The translations under genes and the position numbers were made by a program. A stretch of 64,000 nucleotides of DNA from Chthonomonas calidirosea (lineage in GTDB: Bacteria > Armatimonadota > Chthonomonadetes > Chthonomonadales > CAJBBX01), in contig DYKI01000003.1 in the NCBI GenBank assembly GCA_020722705.1, positions 1 through 64,000 on the forward strand, given 5' to 3'. The notes below the pieces were generated by a model. That model saw nothing but the letters and a program-made list of their open reading frames with translations. It was not told the origin of the DNA and made no database searches. Below, piece by piece: positions 11,577-47,295 of this stretch; position 1 is the first letter of the stretch; every line of letters begins with the position of its first letter.

Positions 11577-12353
11577 ATGAGCATCGAGAACCCGGTTCGT
11601 GGCGAGGCCAGAGGCGAATCCACGAGCGTATCAATACGAGGGATCGGAAAACGCTACGGGCTCCGATGGGTTCTGTATGGATTGGACGCCGCTTTGTCGC
11701 ATGGGTCGGTACTGGGCATCGCTGGACCCAACGGATCGGGAAAGAGCACCGTCATCAAGATAATCGCGGACCTTGTGCGGCCCGATGCCGGGTCTGTGAG
11801 CGTCCTGGTTGGCGGGCGTGAGGTCAGGGAGACTGAGCGTCGCGAACGGGTGGGTCTGGTATCACCGGAGGCCGGATTGTATCCTGCGCTGACGGGCGCC
11901 GAGCATGTGGCGTTTTTCGGGCAGCTCCACGGCCCTCGCATGTCGCCTGATGGCGTCAAAGCGGCTCTTGCCCGGGTAGGCCTGGCGCACCGTCGCAACG
12001 CGACGGTGGCGACGTACAGCTCGGGCATGCGCCAGCGCCTGAAGTTCGCATGCGCCACGATCCACAGCCCGTCGGTGCTCCTGCTCGATGAGCCCTATAT
12101 GGCGCTTGACGCCGATGGTGTTCAGATGGTCAAGGGCGTAGTGGCTGAGCAGCGCGCGCGTGGGGTGTGCGTTGTGGCAGGCAACAGCGAGGCAGAACTC
12201 GCCCTGGCGGATTATGTGGTCCGCCTTGGCGGCTCGGCGGAGCCTCGCCCTCCCGGAGAGCCTCTCCCGTTAGGGGAGTCTCGCCCTCCCGGAGAGCTTC
12301 GCCGTCAGCGGGAACGTTGGCCGCAGGGGATGCGCACGGCGGGATCAGACTGA
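11577..12353 (+). CDS. ccmA: Heme exporter ABC ATPase
   Basis: GPNGSGKSTVIKIIADLVRP, YSSGMRQRLKFACATIHSPSVLLLDEPYMALD, followed by ccmB-F. GTG 11565 is an alternative start. Confidence 0.88.
   Translation: MSIENPVRGEARGESTSVSIRGIGKRYGLRWVLYGLDAALSHGSVLGIAGPNGSGKSTVIKIIADLVRPDAGSVSVLVGGREVRETERRERVGLVSPEAGLYPALTGAEHVAFFGQLHGPRMSPDGVKAALARVGLAHRRNATVATYSSGMRQRLKFACATIHSPSVLLLDEPYMALDADGVQMVKGVVAEQRARGVCVVAGNSEAELALADYVVRLGGSAEPRPPGEPLPLGESRPPGELRRQRERWPQGMRTAGSD
12240..12310 (+). repeat. In-frame 36-bp tandem repeat at the ccmA 3' end
   Basis: TCGCCCTCCCGGAGAG at 12245 and 12281. Encodes EPRPPGEPLPLGESRPPGELRR. Confidence 0.75.
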
Positions 12354-36200: not shown

Positions 36201-36792
36201 TGTACCCTTCGGCATGCTCAACGAGGAGGATTTCGGGACGCCGCCCGCCTCAGCCAGGGTGATCGTCTGGCCTATACCGTACTGCCCGAACGATCGTACG
36301 TTCGACGCTGTTCGGCGATGGGTGCACGAAGGGGGAACCCTGTATTTGTCCGGGAGCGTCGCGTTCGACGATTCACGGAGACCCAACCGGGCAGGTCGGA
36401 TGGTCGCGCTCGGCCTGACGGGCGGCCAGACGGCTCCCTTTGAGCCATGGACGGGGGCGCCGCTGCAGAGAACATCCGTCGGAAAGGGCCATGTTGTGTA
36501 CTCGCCTGATCCGGTCGAGCTCCGTGACTCGGCACAGACTCCGTCCGTGTACTCCGAGGCGCTCTCGGCGGCAGGCGTCCGTCCGGTCCCTGTTCGGACC
36601 AATGGAGGTCGCGTACGCGCCCAGCTTCTCCATGGACGACGCGGGACCGCTCTGTATGTATTCGAGCGGATGGACGATGGCCACCACCCTGTGCGCGCGT
36701 GGGTAGAGAACACGTCGGTGGCCATCACCCTGGGCCGACGCGCATGCGCCTTTGTACTCGTTGATGAACGCGGCAAGGCGAGGCGGCTATAG
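33256..36792 (+). CDS. Large secreted GH5/GH42-like glycoside hydrolase with GATase-like domains on both sides of the TIM barrel
   Basis: YFTLNGRPQIILGSNQTG..DFAIMARAGLRVLRILHFSPF..IIYDVQNEPSVD..LTLGEFGAMEA. GATase-like AVILPYGPFFPEECRDAFIRYLKGGGSFLS and VIVWPIPYCPNDRTFDAVRRWVHEGGTLYLSG. Confidence 0.72.
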   Translation: MILSFALLCVSMASAMAPESVLLHDFRDTSAWRLHQDGGRGVATVRDSSGMRITYTDAPPHWGNLVAACKVPRRAVGLAVRLTKHHASPRAAMHIWLLEPDGDAWLLEVRSGSDGFGRWKAGRQSLVMPIGAFQFQSRGPGTRNMPSCDRILIGCNYGDLDVTMERMEWIMAQELQRDLPDPEPVKIVQGRLGSVGILRMTGALPLGGLPTHQPERLAAVLESAGFGVTLLSPSQMRAEGALSRNVLDAVILPYGPFFPEECRDAFIRYLKGGGSFLSADGYAFDRLIRRARSGWTDTLSAVTAEQASSALATASGAMNTRHGRQGDAMWFGPEQIGVFDPGFPLTNCVSARASAWYRAVGGRDIVYRWTRGVTGYASCALTGDNNPVFPPTYRRWIPLLEGKDASGRDRGAVLALVRNYAGAFRGSSWAFSGLTDGTDILLGDASKRALLVDVVRRLVEGVFLHGLATEYPLYKAGETVTARVKAACFGRSDFSGTLTFRFSTGERRSLSVRLRAGEEATLSVEVPARSVRTGYVPFAARLAGASGVVDEIRSGFCVENKAVVASGPRVEWRGNYFTLNGRPQIILGSNQTGMMFFAEGEGPATWERDFAIMARAGLRVLRILHFSPFAANGYQGQAANSPADLVNRPERLCRQMDAIVQTAQRHGIVVFLTLHDWMPVGLTDSDLQHQREWNRFWAARYRDVPGIIYDVQNEPSVDVPDRPDIVALWNGWLRGRYGTDEELRRVWHVSPPEAAMPLVPLSGGPERWENVRAADRKRFEEYLLNRWAEANVKGVKEGDHDALVCIGYLPSMSPADKVLGVKHTDFSNMHYYGPVDGLPMELALIDRRAYGKGLTLGEFGAMEAHARRNAGADGMPVEASVERFAHTVHAAVGLGAAMICNWSLKEMDQMVFPWGLYQRNTPAAKPWAETYGAMARALEAFEPEYRAPETFILIPDAHRIGPRYEELHAAIRRSVGTLLDLNVPFGMLNEEDFGTPPASARVIVWPIPYCPNDRTFDAVRRWVHEGGTLYLSGSVAFDDSRRPNRAGRMVALGLTGGQTAPFEPWTGAPLQRTSVGKGHVVYSPDPVELRDSAQTPSVYSEALSAAGVRPVPVRTNGGRVRAQLLHGRRGTALYVFERMDDGHHPVRAWVENTSVAITLGRRACAFVLVDERGKARRL

Positions 36793-39700
36793 AGCGCCCG
36801 GCGGCGATTGGGCCGGCCATCGGTACATCGCGGCTCCGTTGAGGGGCAGAGCCCACCATGCGCCTTTCGGGATCGGGCGGACCTCCGAAGCCGAGCCGCC
36901 TTTGGCCGTGACCTTTGCCGGACGGGTGAAGCGGAGGGCGTTGAGCTCCAACGTGAATGGTCTCCCGCTCGGGTAGGGGATGAGAACCCAATCGTTGCCT
37001 TCGCGCCGGATCAGCACGCTTCCGTTCGTTCGTACAGTCGAGAACGTGACGATGCGCCCGTCGGCGTTCAGCCTTGCGAGACCGGAGCGGGCCTTTGTGG
37101 TCGGCCCCGACGCGTTCGGCTCAAAGGAAATGGTCGTCCCGTTGCCTGTGACGGTGAGCGTGCCCAGGATCGAGCGGCCCGACCGGTCACTGGACGCTTC
37201 CATCTGGGGACGCCCCAGGTCGGCCCTATAGAAGCCCGTCGTCCATGTGTAGACGCCGTCGGCGAGATCGGTCGGCAGTTCGATGGTATGCGGCCCATCC
37301 GTGACTGTGTCTCCAGCACGCCACTCGGATGTCCTGCCCGGAAGAGGATGGTCCTGCTGAAAGCGAATGCCCTCGTCGTACGCTTCCCAAGTGGGGCGGC
37401 TGAAGTGGACGAACGCAACGTAGTCTGCGGGCACCGGGCCGGAAACGTGCCAGGCATATGTTGCCGTGAACCTGCGGGGGCCGACCTGGCGAAAGCCTTT
37501 GACCGAGGGTGTCACTGGAATCACGCCGGAAACGTTCCAGTCTTCGGCCGGGCGCGCGTTGGCGAAGACGGTATCGCTGGTCTCGGCGTAGTCGCAGACA
37601 ACGCCGTCGCGAATCGCCGTGTAGGCAGTCACGCCGGCTCCATGGGCGATCCAGCCGTGCTGGGGTAAGGTTGCGCCGTGTGCCCGCCAAGGCTCGCTTC
37701 CGTTGTTGGCGATGATCGTGAGACCGTTGGCGTATGTGATGCGGGGCTTGGACCAATCGCCGGCCTTCGCCGCGGCGGATGCGCTCAACCATTTTCCGGA
37801 TCGGTGGTACCGGATCGAGCGAACGGTCGTGCGCGAGTGCCGCGCTGCGACTGGGGTCGTCAGATGGTGTTCGAGCCATGCCAACGGCTCCTTGCTCCAA
37901 GTTGACGCAGCAAGGAAGCCCGTGTGACCGTAGACAACCTCCTGAACTCGGTACTGGTCCAGAAGCGCCATGGGCGGGACGGCGCCCCACGGCAAGTTGT
38001 CCCACCATCGCTCATAGTAGCCCTGCCCGTGGTTGATCTGAAGCGGGTGGATCTTGAGCAGGTCGAAGTCAGCCATCAGCGGAGCGCTCAGGCCCGCGTT
38101 CGCCGGCCAACCTATGCCGAACTGGGCCTCGACGCCGTCGAGCATCCCGCTCCAGTACCAGTGGTTGCAGCCTTCTCCGAATACAGGTCCGCCATGGGTC
38201 TTGCGCTCATAGGCGAACAGAGCGCGATGCGCGGCGCGTACCCTCGCGAATGTTCCGGAGCCATCCTCGCCGGCCCGATGGTCCACGTGGAACCAGGGCG
38301 GCACAGAGGAGTGAACGTCAAGGTAACAGGCGTTCGTGCCGAATCGTTGGTGGATCTCTGGTGACTGGGTGCCGGCAAGGGGCAGAATGGCGTTCGGCTG
38401 AACAGCGAAGGACTGTATCTTCGTGCCCGGGTTGTACCAGGCCTGCACACGCTTGCCGGATGGGTCCAGGGCTATGTGGCGTTCGTCGAAGTGGTCATAG
38501 TTCGGATAGTAGTCCACGTAGTTCTCGTGGAGCGCGATGAGATACCCCAAGCGGGCGGCTGTCGCGACCAGGAGCTTCATGTTGGCGTCGCCGCCCTTAT
38601 CCGGGGCGGCTGGGAGATGCATGGGAAGAGCGTTGTCATATCCGCTCCGCTGCCAGTCATGAATGATAACCGTGCAGCTCTTAAGGCCGAGCCTGTGTAG
38701 AGCTTCCAGCTTGCGCGCTATGTCGGCGTACCTTCCGCCCCATATGTCAAGGACGAGCCGTCGGCCAACCTCGTGGCGATAGGGGCTCGGCACATTTGGA
38801 ATGTTGGGCAGTACCTCGGCGAGATGCCACGCAGGCGCGAAGACCGCCGTTTCCTTGAGCTTCCGGCGCGTGCCATCGGTGAGGCGCGCGTATGTGGCCA
38901 CTGTGCCGTTGTGGGCGGAAGCGTTCGAGCTGGTCCAGTCAAGGTAGGCGTTGAGAAACAGACCCTCCTGGATGGCGTAGTGGACCATGCCGTAATAGGG
39001 AACTGCTATGGGACGGCGGCGCAGGACCGGCCCCCAGGCGCCGGCGTCGAAGGCCTCCACAGACGGATCGTCACAGACAGCGGACAGCAGCAGCGCTTTG
39101 CCCGCCAGAGAAGCCGTGAGCGTCAGATGTGCCGTTCGACCGGCCACACGGTACCACTTGTCACACACAACGCGCTTCCCGGACGCGCGGAGTGCAAGGC
39201 GTTCGAGGCGTGCTTCGCTGGTCCAGCGCACCTTGGCCGCATAGACGGCTTCAATGGTATGCGCTCGGCCTCCGCGCATGGCAGTTGTGGCCCGGATGCG
39301 CCCCAAATCTCCTACGCCGGGCGACCAGATGTACTCGATGACACCGTCGGCGCCTGCGTATCTGAGCCGGGCGACGTCCGCTGCGACCGACGCGCCGACG
39401 CGCGCGGCGAACCCATTGCTGGGGGCGACCCCATGCCGTGCGGTGTTCACCATCTTGGCCATGTCCAGCTCTGGAGGTTCCCCTTGCCGAACGGGCGTTG
39501 GCCGCATCCCTTCGAATATGACTGTCCGATCGGCCCAGAGCGAATAGTCGAACGATGCGTCTCGGTTTGGCCCGGGATCGGTCTCGAAGCGAACCACGAT
39601 GCGCTGGGACTTGATGCCGCTCAGGTCGAGAGTGAATGGCCTCCATTTGGCATCGGACTGATGCTGCTCCATGAGCTTGCGACCATTGACCAGCACGCGG

Positions 39701-40116
39701 AATGTGACGCCATCCGACCGGTCGGCAAACTCGGCCTTCATGGCTGTTGCGCCCCGAACAAAGATGCGCTTGGTCATGGGGTTGCGGAATGCGAACTCCT
39801 GGAATGCGGCGCCGACCCCGCCGCGCCAGGGGCAGTGAAGGAGCCACGCCCGACGTCCGGCCTGCTGACCGAACTCCTGACAGGACACACCGGTTGCTTC
39901 GTCGAAGTGACCTGCCCAGCCCGTCGGCATGTCCTGCTCGGATGCGCCGTCACGCCTGAACCCGACCCGGTAGAGGCCCAGATCGTCGAGCCGCATCTGG
40001 GCTTGATCGGGGCGAATCAAGGGCGCCGGCTGCCCGGCGGCTGCATGCGGCTGCGTGGCGAATAGTACCGCCAGTGAGACGGCCGCCATCAGCGCGCGAG
40101 GGGCTATGCGGTCCAT
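36787..40116 (-). CDS. Large secreted glycoside hydrolase-like protein (GH101/DUF5696-like)
   Basis: Signal peptide MDRIAPRALMAAVSLAVLFATQPHAAAG, VLDIWGGRYADIARKLEALHRLGLKSCTVIIHDWQRSGYDNALP, TNACYLDVHSSVPPWFHVDHRAGED. Confidence 0.55.
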   Translation of the reverse strand: MDRIAPRALMAAVSLAVLFATQPHAAAGQPAPLIRPDQAQMRLDDLGLYRVGFRRDGASEQDMPTGWAGHFDEATGVSCQEFGQQAGRRAWLLHCPWRGGVGAAFQEFAFRNPMTKRIFVRGATAMKAEFADRSDGVTFRVLVNGRKLMEQHQSDAKWRPFTLDLSGIKSQRIVVRFETDPGPNRDASFDYSLWADRTVIFEGMRPTPVRQGEPPELDMAKMVNTARHGVAPSNGFAARVGASVAADVARLRYAGADGVIEYIWSPGVGDLGRIRATTAMRGGRAHTIEAVYAAKVRWTSEARLERLALRASGKRVVCDKWYRVAGRTAHLTLTASLAGKALLLSAVCDDPSVEAFDAGAWGPVLRRRPIAVPYYGMVHYAIQEGLFLNAYLDWTSSNASAHNGTVATYARLTDGTRRKLKETAVFAPAWHLAEVLPNIPNVPSPYRHEVGRRLVLDIWGGRYADIARKLEALHRLGLKSCTVIIHDWQRSGYDNALPMHLPAAPDKGGDANMKLLVATAARLGYLIALHENYVDYYPNYDHFDERHIALDPSGKRVQAWYNPGTKIQSFAVQPNAILPLAGTQSPEIHQRFGTNACYLDVHSSVPPWFHVDHRAGEDGSGTFARVRAAHRALFAYERKTHGGPVFGEGCNHWYWSGMLDGVEAQFGIGWPANAGLSAPLMADFDLLKIHPLQINHGQGYYERWWDNLPWGAVPPMALLDQYRVQEVVYGHTGFLAASTWSKEPLAWLEHHLTTPVAARHSRTTVRSIRYHRSGKWLSASAAAKAGDWSKPRITYANGLTIIANNGSEPWRAHGATLPQHGWIAHGAGVTAYTAIRDGVVCDYAETSDTVFANARPAEDWNVSGVIPVTPSVKGFRQVGPRRFTATYAWHVSGPVPADYVAFVHFSRPTWEAYDEGIRFQQDHPLPGRTSEWRAGDTVTDGPHTIELPTDLADGVYTWTTGFYRADLGRPQMEASSDRSGRSILGTLTVTGNGTTISFEPNASGPTTKARSGLARLNADGRIVTFSTVRTNGSVLIRREGNDWVLIPYPSGRPFTLELNALRFTRPAKVTAKGGSASEVRPIPKGAWWALPLNGAAMYRWPAQSPPGAL

Positions 40117-41324
40117 GCTGCGCGTATCTTCTCGATGGCCGATGCGATATCGTCCATGTCTGCGGCGTCGCCGAGAAGCATCGTCTGGAACAACCACACG
40201 GCATCGTCGCAGACCTGTTCGCATACCGGACACGCAACCCTGCTGTAGTCAACGTGCCGTCCGGCCTTGCACCACGAACCCACGCCCGCAGTTTTCCGCT
40301 GGAATACGATTTCCTTGTACAGGGGCACATAGCCCGCCGAGACGGGGACGCCTTCGGCCCCCATGGCTTTGAGAAAGTCGCCGCGCGAGCGTCCGCCGAA
40401 CTCGCTGGAGTCGTAACGGAACACGTAGAGGTGGTACGCATGGCGCGTGACCCGTTCGTCCGGCGGCAACGTGCGGATGCCCGGAATCTGGTCCAGAAGT
40501 GCGGTGAGCCTGAGCGCATTGGAGGTTCGGCGTTCCGTCTGCTCCGGCAGCCGCGACAACTGCGCGAGCAGTATGCCTGCCTGCCATTCTGTCATGCGGA
40601 AGTTGCCGCCCAGGACGTGGTGCTCGTACCATTTGCCCGATCGAGTGCGTCCGACGTTATGGACTGACCAGCACTTGTCGGCCACATCTTCTTTGTTCGT
40701 GACGATGCAGCCGCCCTCGCCGGCGTTGAGGTTCTTGCTGGCTTGAAAGCTGAAGGTGCCGCAGTCGCCCAGAGCGCCCACTTTGCGTCCTCGCCATTCG
40801 GCTGCATGAGCCTGGGCCGCATCCTCGATGACGATCAGGTGATGCTTGGCGGCAAGCGCCAGGATGCCATCCATATCGGCAGGACAGCCCGCGATGTGTA
40901 CGGGGATGATCGCTTTCGTTCGCTCGGTGATGGCGGCCTCGGCAGCGGCAGGATCAAGGTTCAGGTTCGTCGGCTCAATGTCGGCGAACACGGGAGTGGC
41001 TCCAACCGCCAGTACGCTGCTGGCCGTCGCGATGAAGGTGTAAGGCGGAACGATCACCTCATCGCCGCAGCCGATCCCGAGCGCCCGGAGAGCTATCTCG
41101 ATCGCCGCGGTGCCGTTGGTGACGGCCACCGCATGCTTGGCGTCCTGCATCGCTGCAAACGCGCTCTCGAACTCTGGGACCCGCCTGCCGCCCACGGCCC
41201 ACCATTGCCCGGATCTCAGGACGTCGAGGATTATCTCCTCCTCCTCGCGCCCGAATACCGGCCACGACGGCCATGGTGATGTGCGTACCGGATTGCCGCC
41301 ATCAACCGCAAGTTTCTCTGTCAT
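40104..41324 (-). CDS. DegT/DnrJ/EryC1/StrS family aminotransferase
   Basis: MTEKLAVDGGNPVRTSPWPSWPVF, AVTNGTAAIEIALRALGIGCGDEVIVPPYTFIATA, VIEDAAQAHAAEWRGRKVGALGDCGTFSFQASKNLNAGEGG. Confidence 0.92.
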   Translation of the reverse strand: MTEKLAVDGGNPVRTSPWPSWPVFGREEEEIILDVLRSGQWWAVGGRRVPEFESAFAAMQDAKHAVAVTNGTAAIEIALRALGIGCGDEVIVPPYTFIATASSVLAVGATPVFADIEPTNLNLDPAAAEAAITERTKAIIPVHIAGCPADMDGILALAAKHHLIVIEDAAQAHAAEWRGRKVGALGDCGTFSFQASKNLNAGEGGCIVTNKEDVADKCWSVHNVGRTRSGKWYEHHVLGGNFRMTEWQAGILLAQLSRLPEQTERRTSNALRLTALLDQIPGIRTLPPDERVTRHAYHLYVFRYDSSEFGGRSRGDFLKAMGAEGVPVSAGYVPLYKEIVFQRKTAGVGSWCKAGRHVDYSRVACPVCEQVCDDAVWLFQTMLLGDAADMDDIASAIEKIRAAWTA

Positions 41325-41815
41325 GTCTCGCTCCTCATCATATGGGCGTGGCATACCGCGACGGCCAGGGCATCAGCCGCATCGTCGGGAGCCGGCGCCG
41401 CTTCCAACCCCAGTATTCGCTGTATCATGAACTGTACCTGCCTCTTGTCGGCGCCTCCGTACCCCACCACAGCCTGCTTCACGGCGACAGGCGAGTACTC
41501 AGTCCACGGTATCCCGCGCCGCGCTGCAGCAAGCAGTACCACACCGATCGTTCGGCCCACGCTGAACGCCGTCGTCTCGTTATGCGAGAAGAACAGACGC
41601 TCCGTTGCGAGTGCATCAACGGCATGCTCGTCGAGCAGGGCTCCAATGGAGTCATAGATCCGTGCGAGCCGCTCCGGCGCTGCCTCTCGCGGGCTTGTGC
41701 GGACGACCCCGAACGCGACCGCGGACAACGCCGAGCCGGCCTTGCGGACTACCCCGTAACCGGTGGTCGCCGTACCGGGATCAATGCCGAGTATCCTGAT
41801 GACCTCTCCACTCAC
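41321..41815 (-). CDS. ruvC: Crossover junction endodeoxyribonuclease RuvC
   Basis: GIDPGTATTGYGVV, ATERLFFSHNETTAFSVG, DDAADALAVAVCH. GTG start 41815, ATGA overlap with the DegT gene. Confidence 0.93.
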   Translation of the reverse strand: MSGEVIRILGIDPGTATTGYGVVRKAGSALSAVAFGVVRTSPREAAPERLARIYDSIGALLDEHAVDALATERLFFSHNETTAFSVGRTIGVVLLAAARRGIPWTEYSPVAVKQAVVGYGGADKRQVQFMIQRILGLEAAPAPDDAADALAVAVCHAHMMRSET

Positions 41816-41850
41816 CGTTCGTCTTTCGCCCTCACCTGTGGGGGCTCGGG

Positions 41851-42657
41851 TCAGTCCGACCCTCGGTAGACCAGCCACGAACAGAGCAGCATTGCCGTGA
41901 CGCCGAAAACGACCAGTGGCCACGTGGACTGCTGGACTGTTAAGCGAGCCGCGGAATAGCCGCCAAGTGCGCCGCCGAGTGCGCCGCCAATGCCGAATGC
42001 AGGCCCGATCACCTCATCGCGTTCCATCCGAATGAGATAACCCACGGCGGGCAGGAGGCCCGCCAGCGCCGCTATGGCCAGCGACGAGATCACAGCCTCA
42101 TGGGGAGGAACGGCCGCGGCATACACCAGGGCAGGTACAAGAAACACGCCGGTGGGCAGCGTAAGGGATCGGGCGAGCCATCCGCAGATCGCTCCTACGG
42201 CCAGCCACCCGAGCACGCCTTCGGGCAGCCAGAGAGCCAGGTTCGCGGGTCCGCCAAAACGGCCCCGGATGCCGTCGCCGACAGTGTACAGGAGCGCGAA
42301 CGTTACGGCCGTCCGCCCGAGTCGCACTGCAAGGCTTCGGGGCCCCAGACTAAGGCGCGCGGCAACGATCGCTCCGATCGTCGCGCCTGCGGCCATCGAA
42401 ACGGAGATCGCGAAATCGGGGCGCCCTGCGCCGGCCGCAACCCAGGCTGCAACGGCGCACAGGGAAGCCCACATGCCGAAGAGGAACGCGACGGCAGATG
42501 CCTTCGGCGTCGCATACCCGAGCATGAATGTCAGATACGGCGAGGCGGCTGCCTGGGCGGACAGGCCGCTGAGCCCGCTCCACGTACCCAGAACAATGCC
42601 TGACAGAAGCATGACGATGCGCTTAATGCGCGGGACGTTCAGCTTCCGCCCGGGCAT
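41851..42657 (-). CDS. Sulfite exporter TauE/SafE family membrane protein
   Basis: ILGTWSGLSGLSAQAAASPYLTFMLGYATPKASAVAFLFG, many TM segments. Confidence 0.72.
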   Translation of the reverse strand: MPGRKLNVPRIKRIVMLLSGIVLGTWSGLSGLSAQAAASPYLTFMLGYATPKASAVAFLFGMWASLCAVAAWVAAGAGRPDFAISVSMAAGATIGAIVAARLSLGPRSLAVRLGRTAVTFALLYTVGDGIRGRFGGPANLALWLPEGVLGWLAVGAICGWLARSLTLPTGVFLVPALVYAAAVPPHEAVISSLAIAALAGLLPAVGYLIRMERDEVIGPAFGIGGALGGALGGYSAARLTVQQSTWPLVVFGVTAMLLCSWLVYRGSD

Positions 42658-42663
42658 GGCCGC

Positions 42664-43710
42664 TCAGCCCTTCAACCCGGTCAGCGTCACTCCCTGGATG
42701 AAGTAGCGCTGGGTGAGGAAGAACACGACGAGGACAGGGAGCATCATCATCGTGCTGGCAGCCATCAAGAGGCCTGGTTCGCCGCCGTGGGCCGTCTGAA
42801 AGAGCTGGAGCGCGTACGCCAGGGGCATCTTGAGGGGAGAACTGATGTAGATGAGGGGGCCCATGAAGTTGTTCCACGCGCCCATGAAGGTCATGATGGT
42901 GATGGCGGCCAGTGCGGGCTTCACGAGAGGAAGCATGATCCGATGATAGATGCCGAAGTAGCTGCAGCCGTCTATCTTGGCCGCGTCCTCGAGGTCGTTC
43001 GGGATGGTCAGGAAGAACTGGCGCAGGAGGAACACGTTGAACGCGCTGCCAAAGAATGCCGGCACCCAGAGTGGCATCAGCGTGTCTATCCAGCCGAGCC
43101 ACCGGAAGATCAGAAACACGGGCATCATCGTGACAGCGCCGGGAAGCATCATCGTGGCCAGGAGGATAACGAACATACCGTCGCGCCCGGGCCAGCGAAG
43201 CCGCGAAAAGCTGAAAGCGACCATCGAGCTTGCCAGGATGGTGCCAACGATACTGAGCACGGCGAGGATGAGCGTGTTCCAGACGAAAACAAGACCGGCG
43301 TTCGTCTCCGGTGGAAGGAACTGCAGCGCGTCGGGGTAGTTCTGCCAGACCGGCCCGAACTGCTTGATCTTGGTCACGTTGGATCGCGGCCTAACGAAGC
43401 GCTTGCCCCTGGTCGGACCCTCGAGCGTTTCCAGCACCTGTTCGCCGGTCTCGCGATCCTCCAACACCGCGACCTTCACCGACCGGCCCATGTACTCCGC
43501 GGTGGCCAGGCCAACCTGCTTGCCATGGAGCGAGATCATGACTTGCTGCCTCGGTATCCACACCGGAGGAAACCGGCTCATGTCCTCGTCCTCCTTGAGC
43601 GACGTGACCACGAGCCAGGCAAACGGTACGAGGAAGAGAAGCGATCCGAGGACGAGCGTAAAGTGGATCACCGCGACGCGTACACGGGCGCGGAGGCTTC
43701 GGCTGTTCAT
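42664..43710 (-). CDS. Carbohydrate ABC transporter permease (MalG-like) with extended first extracytoplasmic loop
   Basis: EAA loop DLEDAAKIDGCSYFGIYHRIMLPLVKPALA, TGLKG C-terminus. About 90-residue insert after the first TM. Confidence 0.9.
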   Translation of the reverse strand: MNSRSLRARVRVAVIHFTLVLGSLLFLVPFAWLVVTSLKEDEDMSRFPPVWIPRQQVMISLHGKQVGLATAEYMGRSVKVAVLEDRETGEQVLETLEGPTRGKRFVRPRSNVTKIKQFGPVWQNYPDALQFLPPETNAGLVFVWNTLILAVLSIVGTILASSMVAFSFSRLRWPGRDGMFVILLATMMLPGAVTMMPVFLIFRWLGWIDTLMPLWVPAFFGSAFNVFLLRQFFLTIPNDLEDAAKIDGCSYFGIYHRIMLPLVKPALAAITIMTFMGAWNNFMGPLIYISSPLKMPLAYALQLFQTAHGGEPGLLMAASTMMMLPVLVVFFLTQRYFIQGVTLTGLKG

Positions 43711-46169
43711 TTCTTCTCGGCTTCGTAGTGGACCCAGCGCGGCGCCACCTTCAACTGCACCACCGTCAGGAGCAGGATGATCACGAACAGGACCCATGCC
43801 AACGCTGAGGCGTAACCCATCTTGAAGTACTTGAAGGCGCTGTTGAACAGGTACATGACGGGAACGAGGAGGCTGTCCACCGGGCCGACCGAGGACCCGC
43901 CCGCACCCTGGCCGCTCAGCACGTACACGCGATCGAACTCCTGAAGCGCCCCGATGGTACCCATGATCAGGTTGAAGAAGACGTAAGGGGACAGCATGGG
44001 AAGTGTGACATTGCGGAACTTGCACCACACGCCTGCTCCGTCGAGTTCGGCGGCTTCATAGAGGTGCTGAGGGATGCCCTGCAGACCGGCCAGCCAGAGG
44101 ATCATACCTCCGCCCGCGCCCCATAGGCCTTGAACGATGAGACCCGGCTTCGCCCATTCGGCGGCGCCGAACCAACCGGGAGGATCCCAGCCGAACCATA
44201 CGCTGAGCGTGACCTTCCATGCGGCATTGAGGAGTCCTCGATTGGGATCTCCATTCAGTACCCACGCCCAGAGGACCGCGCTGGCGACCACCGGTACGAT
44301 GGATGGCAGATAGAAGCAGGTCCGATAGACGCTCATGCCCGCGACCTTCGAGTTGAGGAGCATCGCGATCGCCAGTCCCGTAATGATGCCCAGCGGGATG
44401 CCGATGCCCGCGAGATAGGCGACGTTGTAGAGCGACGTCGTCAGGTAGTAGCTGTCCGACGAGAACAGCTCGCGGTAGTTGTCCAGCCCCACGAATCGGG
44501 GTGAGTGCAGAACGTCGTAGTCGCAGAAGCTCAAGAAGATCGAAGTGAGGATCGGGCCGGCTGTGAGCGCCAGAAAGCCGAACAGCCAGGGCGACGCGAA
44601 AGCATATCCTGCCCACGCCTCTTGCCTTGAAACGCGCCCGAGCCGCAGGATGCCGACCACACGCCAGCCGCCATAGGCAAGGACCGCGATGCCGCAGACG
44701 ACAGCCAGAGCAACCGGGATTTTAGGATCGAGGGGAGGGTAGACCTTGCGGTTCAGGACCTTGTCCAGTTCCTTCTGGACAACAGCCGCGCCTTCGGCCA
44801 TGGCCACCTTGGGCGTTTTTCCGGTATCCGCATGGTGTGTGGCCTGATCGAATGCCCGTGCGTGCTCATCCCACAGACGTTGGCCAACGAAGGTAACCGG
44901 TCTGAAACGCGCGGCGGGCATCATGTCTATGAAAAGACGAAGAGGAGCGCGGAACTTCTCGGCCTGTGGTGCATAGGCGGCGAAGACAGCCTCATTCACG
45001 CGACGGTTAGCCGATATGCCCGGAATGAACGGACGGCCCTTCGCCAGGTTGTAGCGACGCTGGGCTTCCGCGTCAATCAGGCCCGCCTCAGGGCTGCACA
45101 TCCACTTGATGAAGGCCCACGCTTCGCGCGTGCGTCTCGCTCCGCGCGGGATCGCATACGAAAAGCCCCCTGACCATGTGATGAACGGCGGCTGACCCGT
45201 AAACCGACCCTGCTTGCGACCTTCGGTTTGATCGAGGCGCTCGGCAGGCACCGGCGCCGGCGCGACGCCGAAATCCAGATCGGGTCTATACCGCCCGATG
45301 CCCTGAAGGACCCAGTTGCCGTCTATCTTCATCGCGACCTTGCCGGTCAGGAATGGGTCCAGCTCCTGGGCCTGGAAGCCCGATGCGAATGCATCCACTT
45401 TCGTTACGCCGCCGAGAGCATCGTAGACATCAACCATGAACTGGAGAGCCGCTATGCTCTGAGGATTGTCGAGGGTGCATCGCCGGCCGTCGGGCGACAT
45501 GAACTCGCCGCCATTCTGCCAGCTATAGAGGTACAGCCATGAGTTGCCGTAGTTGGGGATAAAGCCGATGCGAGCGAATGACCCGTCGGCGTTCAGCTTG
45601 GTCAGCCGCTTGGCCGCATCGAGGAGCTGGTCCCACGTTCTTGGAGGCTTTGATGGGTTCAGACCGGCTGCGCGGAACAGGGACCGATTGTAATAGAGCG
45701 CACGATCGTCGGTACTGGAAGGTATGGCGAACACGCGCCCCTGGTAGACGGCCTCGGCCCAGCACGCTTCGTAGAAGTCATCGGGCTTGATGGCGTCAGG
45801 AGCTCCGGCGTCGTTGCGGATCAGATCGTCTAGAGGTCGAAACGCGTCGCGGGAGGCCCAATCGCCAATCGTGAAGCGATCCTGATGAATAACGTCGGGC
45901 GGAACCTTGCCGACGATCGCGGTCATCAGTTTCTGGGGGTTCATCTGGCCCGCGCCCATGGAGAGGATGCTGACCTTGACCCCATGCCTGCGCTCGAACT
46001 CGGAGACACGCGCGCGCAGTCCCTCACTTTCCTCGCCGTACTGCAGGCCCCAGACAACCAGTTCGGGATGTTCGTTTGGCGCGGTCGGAGAGACGCCGCA
46101 GCCCGAAAGCGTTGCGATGGCTACGCCTGCCAGGGCCAGAAACGTGAAGAGGGGGAAATGAAAGCGCAT
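43707..46169 (-). CDS. Lipoprotein family-1 solute-binding protein fused to MalF-like ABC permease
   Basis: Continuous 820-aa ORF. Lipobox LSGC near residue 23, family-1 SBP to about 480, TM linker IPVALAVVCGIAVLAYGGWRVV, MalF-type permease with EAA loop LYEAAELDGAGVWCKFRNVTLPMLSP. Confidence 0.9.
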   Translation of the reverse strand: MRFHFPLFTFLALAGVAIATLSGCGVSPTAPNEHPELVVWGLQYGEESEGLRARVSEFERRHGVKVSILSMGAGQMNPQKLMTAIVGKVPPDVIHQDRFTIGDWASRDAFRPLDDLIRNDAGAPDAIKPDDFYEACWAEAVYQGRVFAIPSSTDDRALYYNRSLFRAAGLNPSKPPRTWDQLLDAAKRLTKLNADGSFARIGFIPNYGNSWLYLYSWQNGGEFMSPDGRRCTLDNPQSIAALQFMVDVYDALGGVTKVDAFASGFQAQELDPFLTGKVAMKIDGNWVLQGIGRYRPDLDFGVAPAPVPAERLDQTEGRKQGRFTGQPPFITWSGGFSYAIPRGARRTREAWAFIKWMCSPEAGLIDAEAQRRYNLAKGRPFIPGISANRRVNEAVFAAYAPQAEKFRAPLRLFIDMMPAARFRPVTFVGQRLWDEHARAFDQATHHADTGKTPKVAMAEGAAVVQKELDKVLNRKVYPPLDPKIPVALAVVCGIAVLAYGGWRVVGILRLGRVSRQEAWAGYAFASPWLFGFLALTAGPILTSIFLSFCDYDVLHSPRFVGLDNYRELFSSDSYYLTTSLYNVAYLAGIGIPLGIITGLAIAMLLNSKVAGMSVYRTCFYLPSIVPVVASAVLWAWVLNGDPNRGLLNAAWKVTLSVWFGWDPPGWFGAAEWAKPGLIVQGLWGAGGGMILWLAGLQGIPQHLYEAAELDGAGVWCKFRNVTLPMLSPYVFFNLIMGTIGALQEFDRVYVLSGQGAGGSSVGPVDSLLVPVMYLFNSAFKYFKMGYASALAWVLFVIILLLTVVQLKVAPRWVHYEAEKK

Positions 46170-46338: not shown

Positions 46339-47295
46339 ATGAAGCGAATCGGTTTGGCGGCTGTTGTCGGGCTCTGTTGTGCCCTCATCGTCGGGTGTGG
46401 CAAGCAGGAAACGAAACCGACGATCGCCGTGATCCCGAAGGGCACCAGCCAGTCGTTCTGGCTTGCGGTCAAAGCCGGTGCCGAGAAGGCGGGGGCTGAG
46501 GGGAACGTTGCCATCCATTGGGAAGGCCCGACCGAGGAGACCGATCTCGACGGTCAGATCCGCGTCGTCCAGAACGCCATCACGAAGAAGGTGAAAGCGA
46601 TCGTTCTGGCCGCTTGCGATGCCAAGAGCCTTGTCCGGTATGTGAAGGAGGCTCAGGCGGCGGGCATTCCGGTGGTCACCATCGATTCCGGCATCAACCC
46701 TGACATCAGCAAGGCGTTCCTGGCGACCGACAACGTTCTTGGGGGCGCTCAGGCTGCCGACACGCTGGCTAGTCTCGTTGGCGAGAAGGGCAAGGTAGGG
46801 CTGCTGCCGTTCATCAAGGGGGCGGGCTCATCGGACGACCGCGAGCGCGGCTTCATTGACGGCTTGAGCAAGTACCCCGATATTGACCTTGGAGACCGAG
46901 TTCTCTATTCGAACAGCGACGTCTCCATTGGCCTTGACAAGACGAAGTCCATGTTGACCTCAACGCCGGACCTTGCCGGGCTTTTTGCCGCGAACCAGGG
47001 CGGGGCGGAGGGCGCGATACAGGCGATCCGCCAAATGGGCAAAGCCGGAAAGGTCAAGCTCGTCTGCTACGACGCGTCAGAGGCCGAGATTCAGGCGCTG
47101 AGAGACGGCGTTGTCCAAGCGCTGATCGTCCAGAACCCGTACCGAATGGGCTATGAGGGCGTCAAGACGGCGCTTCGTGCGGCCAATGGCGAGACGATTG
47201 ACCCCCGTGTGATAGATACGGGCGTGACCGTAGTGACGGCCGAGAACCTCGACACGCCTGAGATACAGAAGCTTCTGGACCCAACGAAGGGGTAG
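46339..47295 (+). CDS. Sugar ABC transporter substrate-binding lipoprotein (RbsB / type 1 PBP)
   Basis: Lipobox ALIVGC, IAVIPKGTSQSFWLAVKAGAEKAG, KAIVLAACDAKSLVRYVKEAQAAGIPVVTIDSGI, LFAANQGGAEGA. Confidence 0.92.
   Translation: MKRIGLAAVVGLCCALIVGCGKQETKPTIAVIPKGTSQSFWLAVKAGAEKAGAEGNVAIHWEGPTEETDLDGQIRVVQNAITKKVKAIVLAACDAKSLVRYVKEAQAAGIPVVTIDSGINPDISKAFLATDNVLGGAQAADTLASLVGEKGKVGLLPFIKGAGSSDDRERGFIDGLSKYPDIDLGDRVLYSNSDVSIGLDKTKSMLTSTPDLAGLFAANQGGAEGAIQAIRQMGKAGKVKLVCYDASEAEIQALRDGVVQALIVQNPYRMGYEGVKTALRAANGETIDPRVIDTGVTVVTAENLDTPEIQKLLDPTKG

Follow-up and report, generated by a model that had tools for sequence, protein, structure and literature searches.

Conservation of a solute-binding protein fused to a MalF-type permease, and a beta domain in the first extracellular loop of its MalG partner

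Does an open reading frame that carries both a sugar-binding protein and a complete permease represent a real gene, and if so, what kind of importer would it build? This question is raised by malEF, a gene on the minus strand of a 64,000-nucleotide stretch of DNA (the whole of which is referred to here as the window). The features of the locus are collected in Table 1.

Table 1. Features of the malEF-malG locus, in window positions
Feature	Position	Strand	Extent	Basis or remark
malEF, fused SBP-TM-MalF	43707..46169	(-)	820 aa	Open frame, Pfam domains, kept in many genomes
Signal peptide and lipobox LSGC, Cys24	46098..46169	(-)	aa 1-24	Sequence
SBP domain, family 1	44754..46064	(-)	~aa 36-472	Pfam SBP_bac_1, AF2, Foldseek
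Linker (~10 aa) and extra TM helix	44646..44753	(-)	aa 473-508	Hydrophobicity, AF2, homologue length
MalF-type permease domain	43710..44636	(-)	aa 512-820	BPD_transp_1, MalF/UgpA-like
EAA loop of MalF, ATPase coupling site	43992..44063	(-)	aa 703-726	Invariant residues in alignment
malG, partner permease	42664..43710	(-)	348 aa	BPD_transp_1, UgpE/MalG-like; start overlaps malEF stop
SH3/Tudor-like beta domain in MalG first extracellular loop	43354..43554	(-)	~aa 53-119	Loop length, AF2, Foldseek

The fused gene and its distribution

The malEF coordinates include the TGA stop and enclose 820 codons with no internal stop. Reading of the frame, Pfam, an AlphaFold2 (AF2) model and an alignment together confirmed what had been proposed from the sequence, namely a lipobox, a solute-binding protein (SBP), an extra transmembrane (TM) segment and a MalF-like permease with its EAA loop in a single frame. 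Pfam placed SBP_bac_1 at residues 46-362 (9e-37) and BPD_transp_1 at residues 590-812 (8e-14), and the EAA loop, LYEAAELDGAGVWCKFRNVTLPM, contains seven residues (E705, A706, D710, G711, A712, T722 and P724) that are invariant among 36 homologues. The AF2 model, built with the 36 homologues, reached a pLDDT of 82 and a pTM of 0.76, with the SBP well modelled and the permease helices starting at 512, whereas confidence was low for the permease helices around 600-630 and for the loop 746-768. With a family-1 SBP, MalF and MalG permease domains and an EAA loop, the locus thus displays the features of a CUT1 importer. Regarding the substrate, Foldseek matched the SBP to oligosaccharide binders, including 6ffl, and the best PDB matches were 4r9f/4r9g (mannan oligosaccharides); the top match to 4r9f leaves the substrate unfixed. 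The best NCBIfam matches were UgpA, GlcT and MalF for the permease half and UgpE, MalG and GlcU for malG, but all of these fall below the equivalog cut-offs and therefore do not identify a substrate either. Nor did the gene neighbours of the homologous loci point to one: no glycosidase was consistently linked, and only malG and, at a few loci, a TauE-like gene recurred.

One explanation of such a frame is a missed stop or a frameshift, by which an assembly or sequencing error merges two adjacent genes. The genome of the window is fragmented (343 contigs), unfused adjacent homologues do exist, and one related MAG has the gene split in two frames. Against this, the fusion was found as one match of at least 600 residues in one open frame in at least 63 of the 101 genomes searched, a set made up of the window's own genome, other members of its genus, family and order, and sampled genomes of the phylum. 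Two of the genomes with the fusion are single contigs (G015 and G087), and the same extra TM segment is found at the joint. In a genome of the same genus, the fusion is 85% identical across residues 14-820. The original prediction had singled out a frameshift or missed stop at the junction, or homologues that are always separate genes, as what would speak against it. Inspection of the junction DNA revealed no anomaly, and the two parts were fused in dozens of independent genomes. We consequently rejected the artefact explanation on the conservation of the fusion, and its probability appears negligible. The split gene itself (L165, G035:C9:13319-15707) lies in two overlapping frames with the break within the SBP domain, representing either real decay or an assembly error.

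The named fused loci are distributed over Chthonomonadales, Fimbriimonadales, Abditibacterium and other Armatimonadota, together with one Sumerlaeota and one Hydrogenedentota genome. Strong matches, mostly full length, were also obtained in 17 of 61 genomes related to the Sumerlaeota one and in 27 of 60 related to the Hydrogenedentota one. In Paenibacillus, Brevibacillus and Gracilibacillus (Bacillota), the homologous CUT1 systems have SBP, malF and malG in the same order as in the window but as three separate genes, and with MalG loops of only ~35-47 residues. The homologues in Chloroflexota are likewise adjacent, separate genes. Since the same parts are adjacent but separate in these two phyla, the fusion would most simply have arisen by joining of operon neighbours. 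Beyond the main clade, SBP-MalF fusions with divergent SBPs were also seen (L156, L160, L161, L162, L164, L166, L190 and L191), which suggests more than one origin or a paralogous expansion.

The joint, the N terminus and known fusions

The tether of the SBP consists of a short linker and a TM anchor, as judged by hydrophobicity, AF2 and alignment. AF2 places the extra TM helix at residues 483-508, in agreement with the hydrophobic peak at 484-508. A clear hydrophobic segment was present at the joint in 74 of 75 fused loci, a set in which the same genomes are included via two sources; the exception, L065, was under the threshold. Moreover, the stretch from L468 to E517, covering the linker and the TM helix, measured 48-51 residues in all 36 aligned homologues. 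This near-constant length suggests that the geometry of the tether is under selection.

The N terminus was more variable. That of malEF reads MRFHFPLFTFLALAGVAIATLSGC and is plausible as a lipoprotein signal, judging by its sequence. However, a lipobox-like motif was found in at most 14 of 36 homologue N termini even with a loose pattern, the rest having signal peptides or anchors without a lipobox. On these N termini the lipobox is outside the conserved design of the fusion, and the original proposal that lipidation forms part of the design was not borne out. The lipobox, plain signal-peptide and anchor versions all have one common topology.

These two observations also bear on whether malEF may merely encode a precursor, a protease cutting the chain after insertion or an internal start giving a free permease, so that the mature SBP would be an ordinary lipoprotein. 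The N terminus of malEF does resemble that of an ordinary lipoprotein SBP, and unfused relatives function as separate genes. Yet a precursor would have no need of a linker-TM stretch that is nearly constant in length in the 36 homologues and hydrophobic in nearly all loci, and without a lipobox, as in most homologues, a released SBP would be unanchored. We therefore regard a cleaved or internally started product as unlikely. A genuine, conserved SBP-TM-MalF fusion of coherent topology, with a permanently tethered receptor, is instead what the homologues and the topology signals support.

Fusion of an SBP to a transporter subunit is also known from OpuA and GlnPQ, in which a short linker plus a single hydrophobic TM anchor join the substrate-binding domain (SBD) to the membrane subunit, as in the window. 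These systems differ from the window in SBP class and in the order of the SBD, and their translocator is a homodimer that carries at least two SBDs. The SBP of malEF belongs to the SBP_bac_1 family, and its permease has a distinct partner gene, malG. The OpuA linker is 11 aa and comes with the hydrophobic anchor (PMC11065425), compared with ~10 aa for the linker of malEF.

Within the MalFG family, the original prediction had been made in the belief that no well-characterised example was known. This turned out to be incorrect, as a natural MalE-MalF fusion has been characterised in Bdellovibrio bacteriovorus (Licht et al. 2019; MalE domain, PDB 6FFL). In this transporter, one family-1 SBP is fused to the MalF of a MalFGK2-type importer, and SBP and MalF likewise form one polypeptide in the window. 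The kind of architecture is consequently already known. The Bdellovibrio MalE domain matched the window SBP with a sequence E-value of 4.6e-7 and a TM-score of 0.78 on the target at 19% identity, but it is not the closest relative, as many unfused SBPs score higher. The window fusion belongs to a large Armatimonadota/Sumerlaeota/Hydrogenedentota clade, and the breadth of this clade shows that the case of Bdellovibrio is no isolated oddity. The Bdellovibrio fusion transporter is reportedly active in vitro on maltodextrins.

Partner permease, ATPase and the proposed importer

The overlap of malEF and malG reads ATGA, which suggests that the two genes are translationally coupled. In the homologous loci malG usually overlaps or follows the fused gene, and it is the sole neighbour kept across most of them. 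Several fused genes have no malG in their flanks, and for L052, L081 and L095 none was found within ~6 kb; several related genomes of this group do have a malG with the insert (see below), but at another place in the genome. In the window itself, malG is followed on the same strand by a run of genes (36787-42657) that may form one transcript and encode a TauE-like protein, RuvC, a DegT aminotransferase and a large DUF5696 protein. The gene directly upstream of malEF (46339-47295, plus strand) is divergent and encodes a lipoprotein assigned to the ribose-type SBPs (Peripla_BP_4).

The window was also predicted to hold no cognate ATPase, and this holds true: its only ABC_tran match, at 11682-12095 (+), is far from malEF and lacks the MalK signature domain. 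It cannot be counted as MalK-type, as the genome encodes just one OB_MalK protein (382 aa), on another contig, C148, unlinked to malEF. With one OB_MalK ATPase to about nine MalF-type permeases in the genome, the C148 protein is likely shared among the sugar importers in the manner of MsmX. Unlinked, shared ATPases are common for CUT1-class importers of other bacteria. The description of malEF-malG as a self-contained importer was therefore only partly right: the receptor is tethered, but the ATPase is unlinked and probably serves the genome's other sugar importers as well.

The lack of linked ATPase or catabolic genes, and a malG that is unlinked or missing near some homologues, could also be expected of a sugar sensor or regulator made from transporter parts that has lost its role in import. 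The EAA coupling loop is nevertheless highly conserved, malG in most cases overlaps or follows the fused gene, and a MalK-type ATPase is present in the genome. A regulatory role is accordingly quite improbable. We consider it highly probable that malEF-malG is a CUT1, MalFG-like type-I importer of sugars or oligosaccharides, with the SBP built into MalF and an unlinked MalK/MsmX-type ATPase. The Pfam domains SBP_bac_1 and BPD_transp_1, the EAA loops, the confidently modelled SBP and linking helix and the known natural precedent are among the supports for this reading.

From the open frame, its domains and topology signals, their conservation, the single OB_MalK ATPase and the MalG insert, we infer how the importer would operate. 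The SBP domain would lie outside the membrane and catch a sugar or oligosaccharide, while the linker of ~10 residues and the one extra TM helix would bring the chain back to the cytoplasm, leaving the permease in its usual orientation. The malEF protein would form a complex with the product of the overlapping malG. Transport would be driven by a MalK/MsmX-type ATPase whose gene lies at a distance, which is probably the only one in the genome and serves other importers too. The locus has one SBP domain, in malEF, and a separate, overlapping malG. Because this domain stands at the N terminus and the chain pairs with another kind of subunit, each complex would be expected to hold one SBP. The receptor would be permanently held above its own pore at a 1:1 stoichiometry, probably seated there with the help of the beta domain in the first MalG loop.

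This plan of MalF, MalG, MalK-type ATPase and SBP, with EAA loops and the SBP fold, is shared with E. coli MalFGK2-MalE. In E. coli, however, MalE is free and in excess, whereas the SBP of the window is fused. The excess has been given as 30-50 fold for the E. coli maltose importer (PMC9045158), and a large excess is usual for such importers. A phylum-wide clade with one receptor per pump would thus offer a natural experiment on when receptor excess is needed.

An insert in the first extracellular loop of MalG

A second difference from E. coli concerns the loops of the permeases. The large P2 domain of E. coli MalF (residues 91-271) is missing from the MalF of the window; instead, the P1 loop of MalG is enlarged. 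This enlargement was absent from the original prediction. The extracellular loop between TM1 and TM2 spans ~110 residues in the window MalG, compared with ~30-55 in ordinary MalG, and the extra ~65 residues are modelled by AF2 as an all-beta domain (pLDDT 87.8). Foldseek related this domain to SH3/Tudor/KOW-like folds with E-values of 0.05 or worse; as these values are weak, SH3/Tudor/KOW describes the fold class of the insert and does not imply homology. Pfam searches of both small and large MalG inserts found no family, and the small insert, run as a profile against the PDB, gave chance-level matches only. In E. coli, MalE is reported to contact loop P1 of MalG together with loop P2 of MalF (Daus et al. 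2007), which would locate the insert at the receptor contact site.

To what extent do long MalG loops accompany the fusion? In a first set, consisting of MalF genes whose partner could be measured, the MalG loop was long for 38 of 43 fused permeases and for 6 of 65 unfused ones; L050, whose nearest malG belongs to another cluster, was set aside and the broken L165 was removed. The numbers in a second set from other phyla, in which one unfused row is a duplicate of L122, were 18/23 and 1/12, respectively, which brings the pooled sample to 56 of 66 for the fused permeases and 7 of 77 for the unfused ones. The p-value of the Fisher test was ~1e-17 in the first set and ~1e-21 after pooling, with related sequences treated as independent. 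On the tree, the fusion requires about five changes, at least two of which are forced by supported branches, and an independent-pairs test of fusion against MalG loop was not significant, the pairs being too few. It should also be underlined that both sets were chosen by similarity to the window proteins and not at random. Because of this selection, the non-independence of related sequences and the non-significant paired test, the association is only suggestive; causality is not shown, and much of it is explained by shared ancestry.

A more far-reaching reading is that malEF belongs to a widespread type of captive-receptor importer, in which joining of the SBP to MalF goes together with the gain of a docking domain in the MalG loop. 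This docking domain, made up of one or two SH3-like barrels or of a different domain of ~300 aa, would hold or gate the tethered SBP in the manner of MalF P2 in E. coli. We put this forward tentatively, as a possibility that may well prove wrong. The importer architecture is uncommon, has been characterised before and is conserved across the phylum, and the partner MalG carries an accessory domain. A search of the open-licence literature found no description of the spread of the fusion in Armatimonadota and neighbouring phyla, or of the enlarged MalG loop by which it is usually accompanied. It is thus the breadth of the fusion and the SH3/Tudor-like domain in the loop of the partner MalG that are new, and the insert, located in the loop that MalE contacts, offers a tangible starting point for asking how the position of a captive receptor is set.

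The size of the insert varies among the fused systems. In those of Fimbriimonadales, the MalG loop measures ~160-170 residues and apparently contains two copies of the insert. At a further group of loci (L073, L079, L082, L083, L086, L091, L094 and L249-L262), the malG adjoining the fused gene carries a first-extracellular-loop domain of ~300 residues, which had no Pfam match in those tested and is helical at first and then beta-rich.
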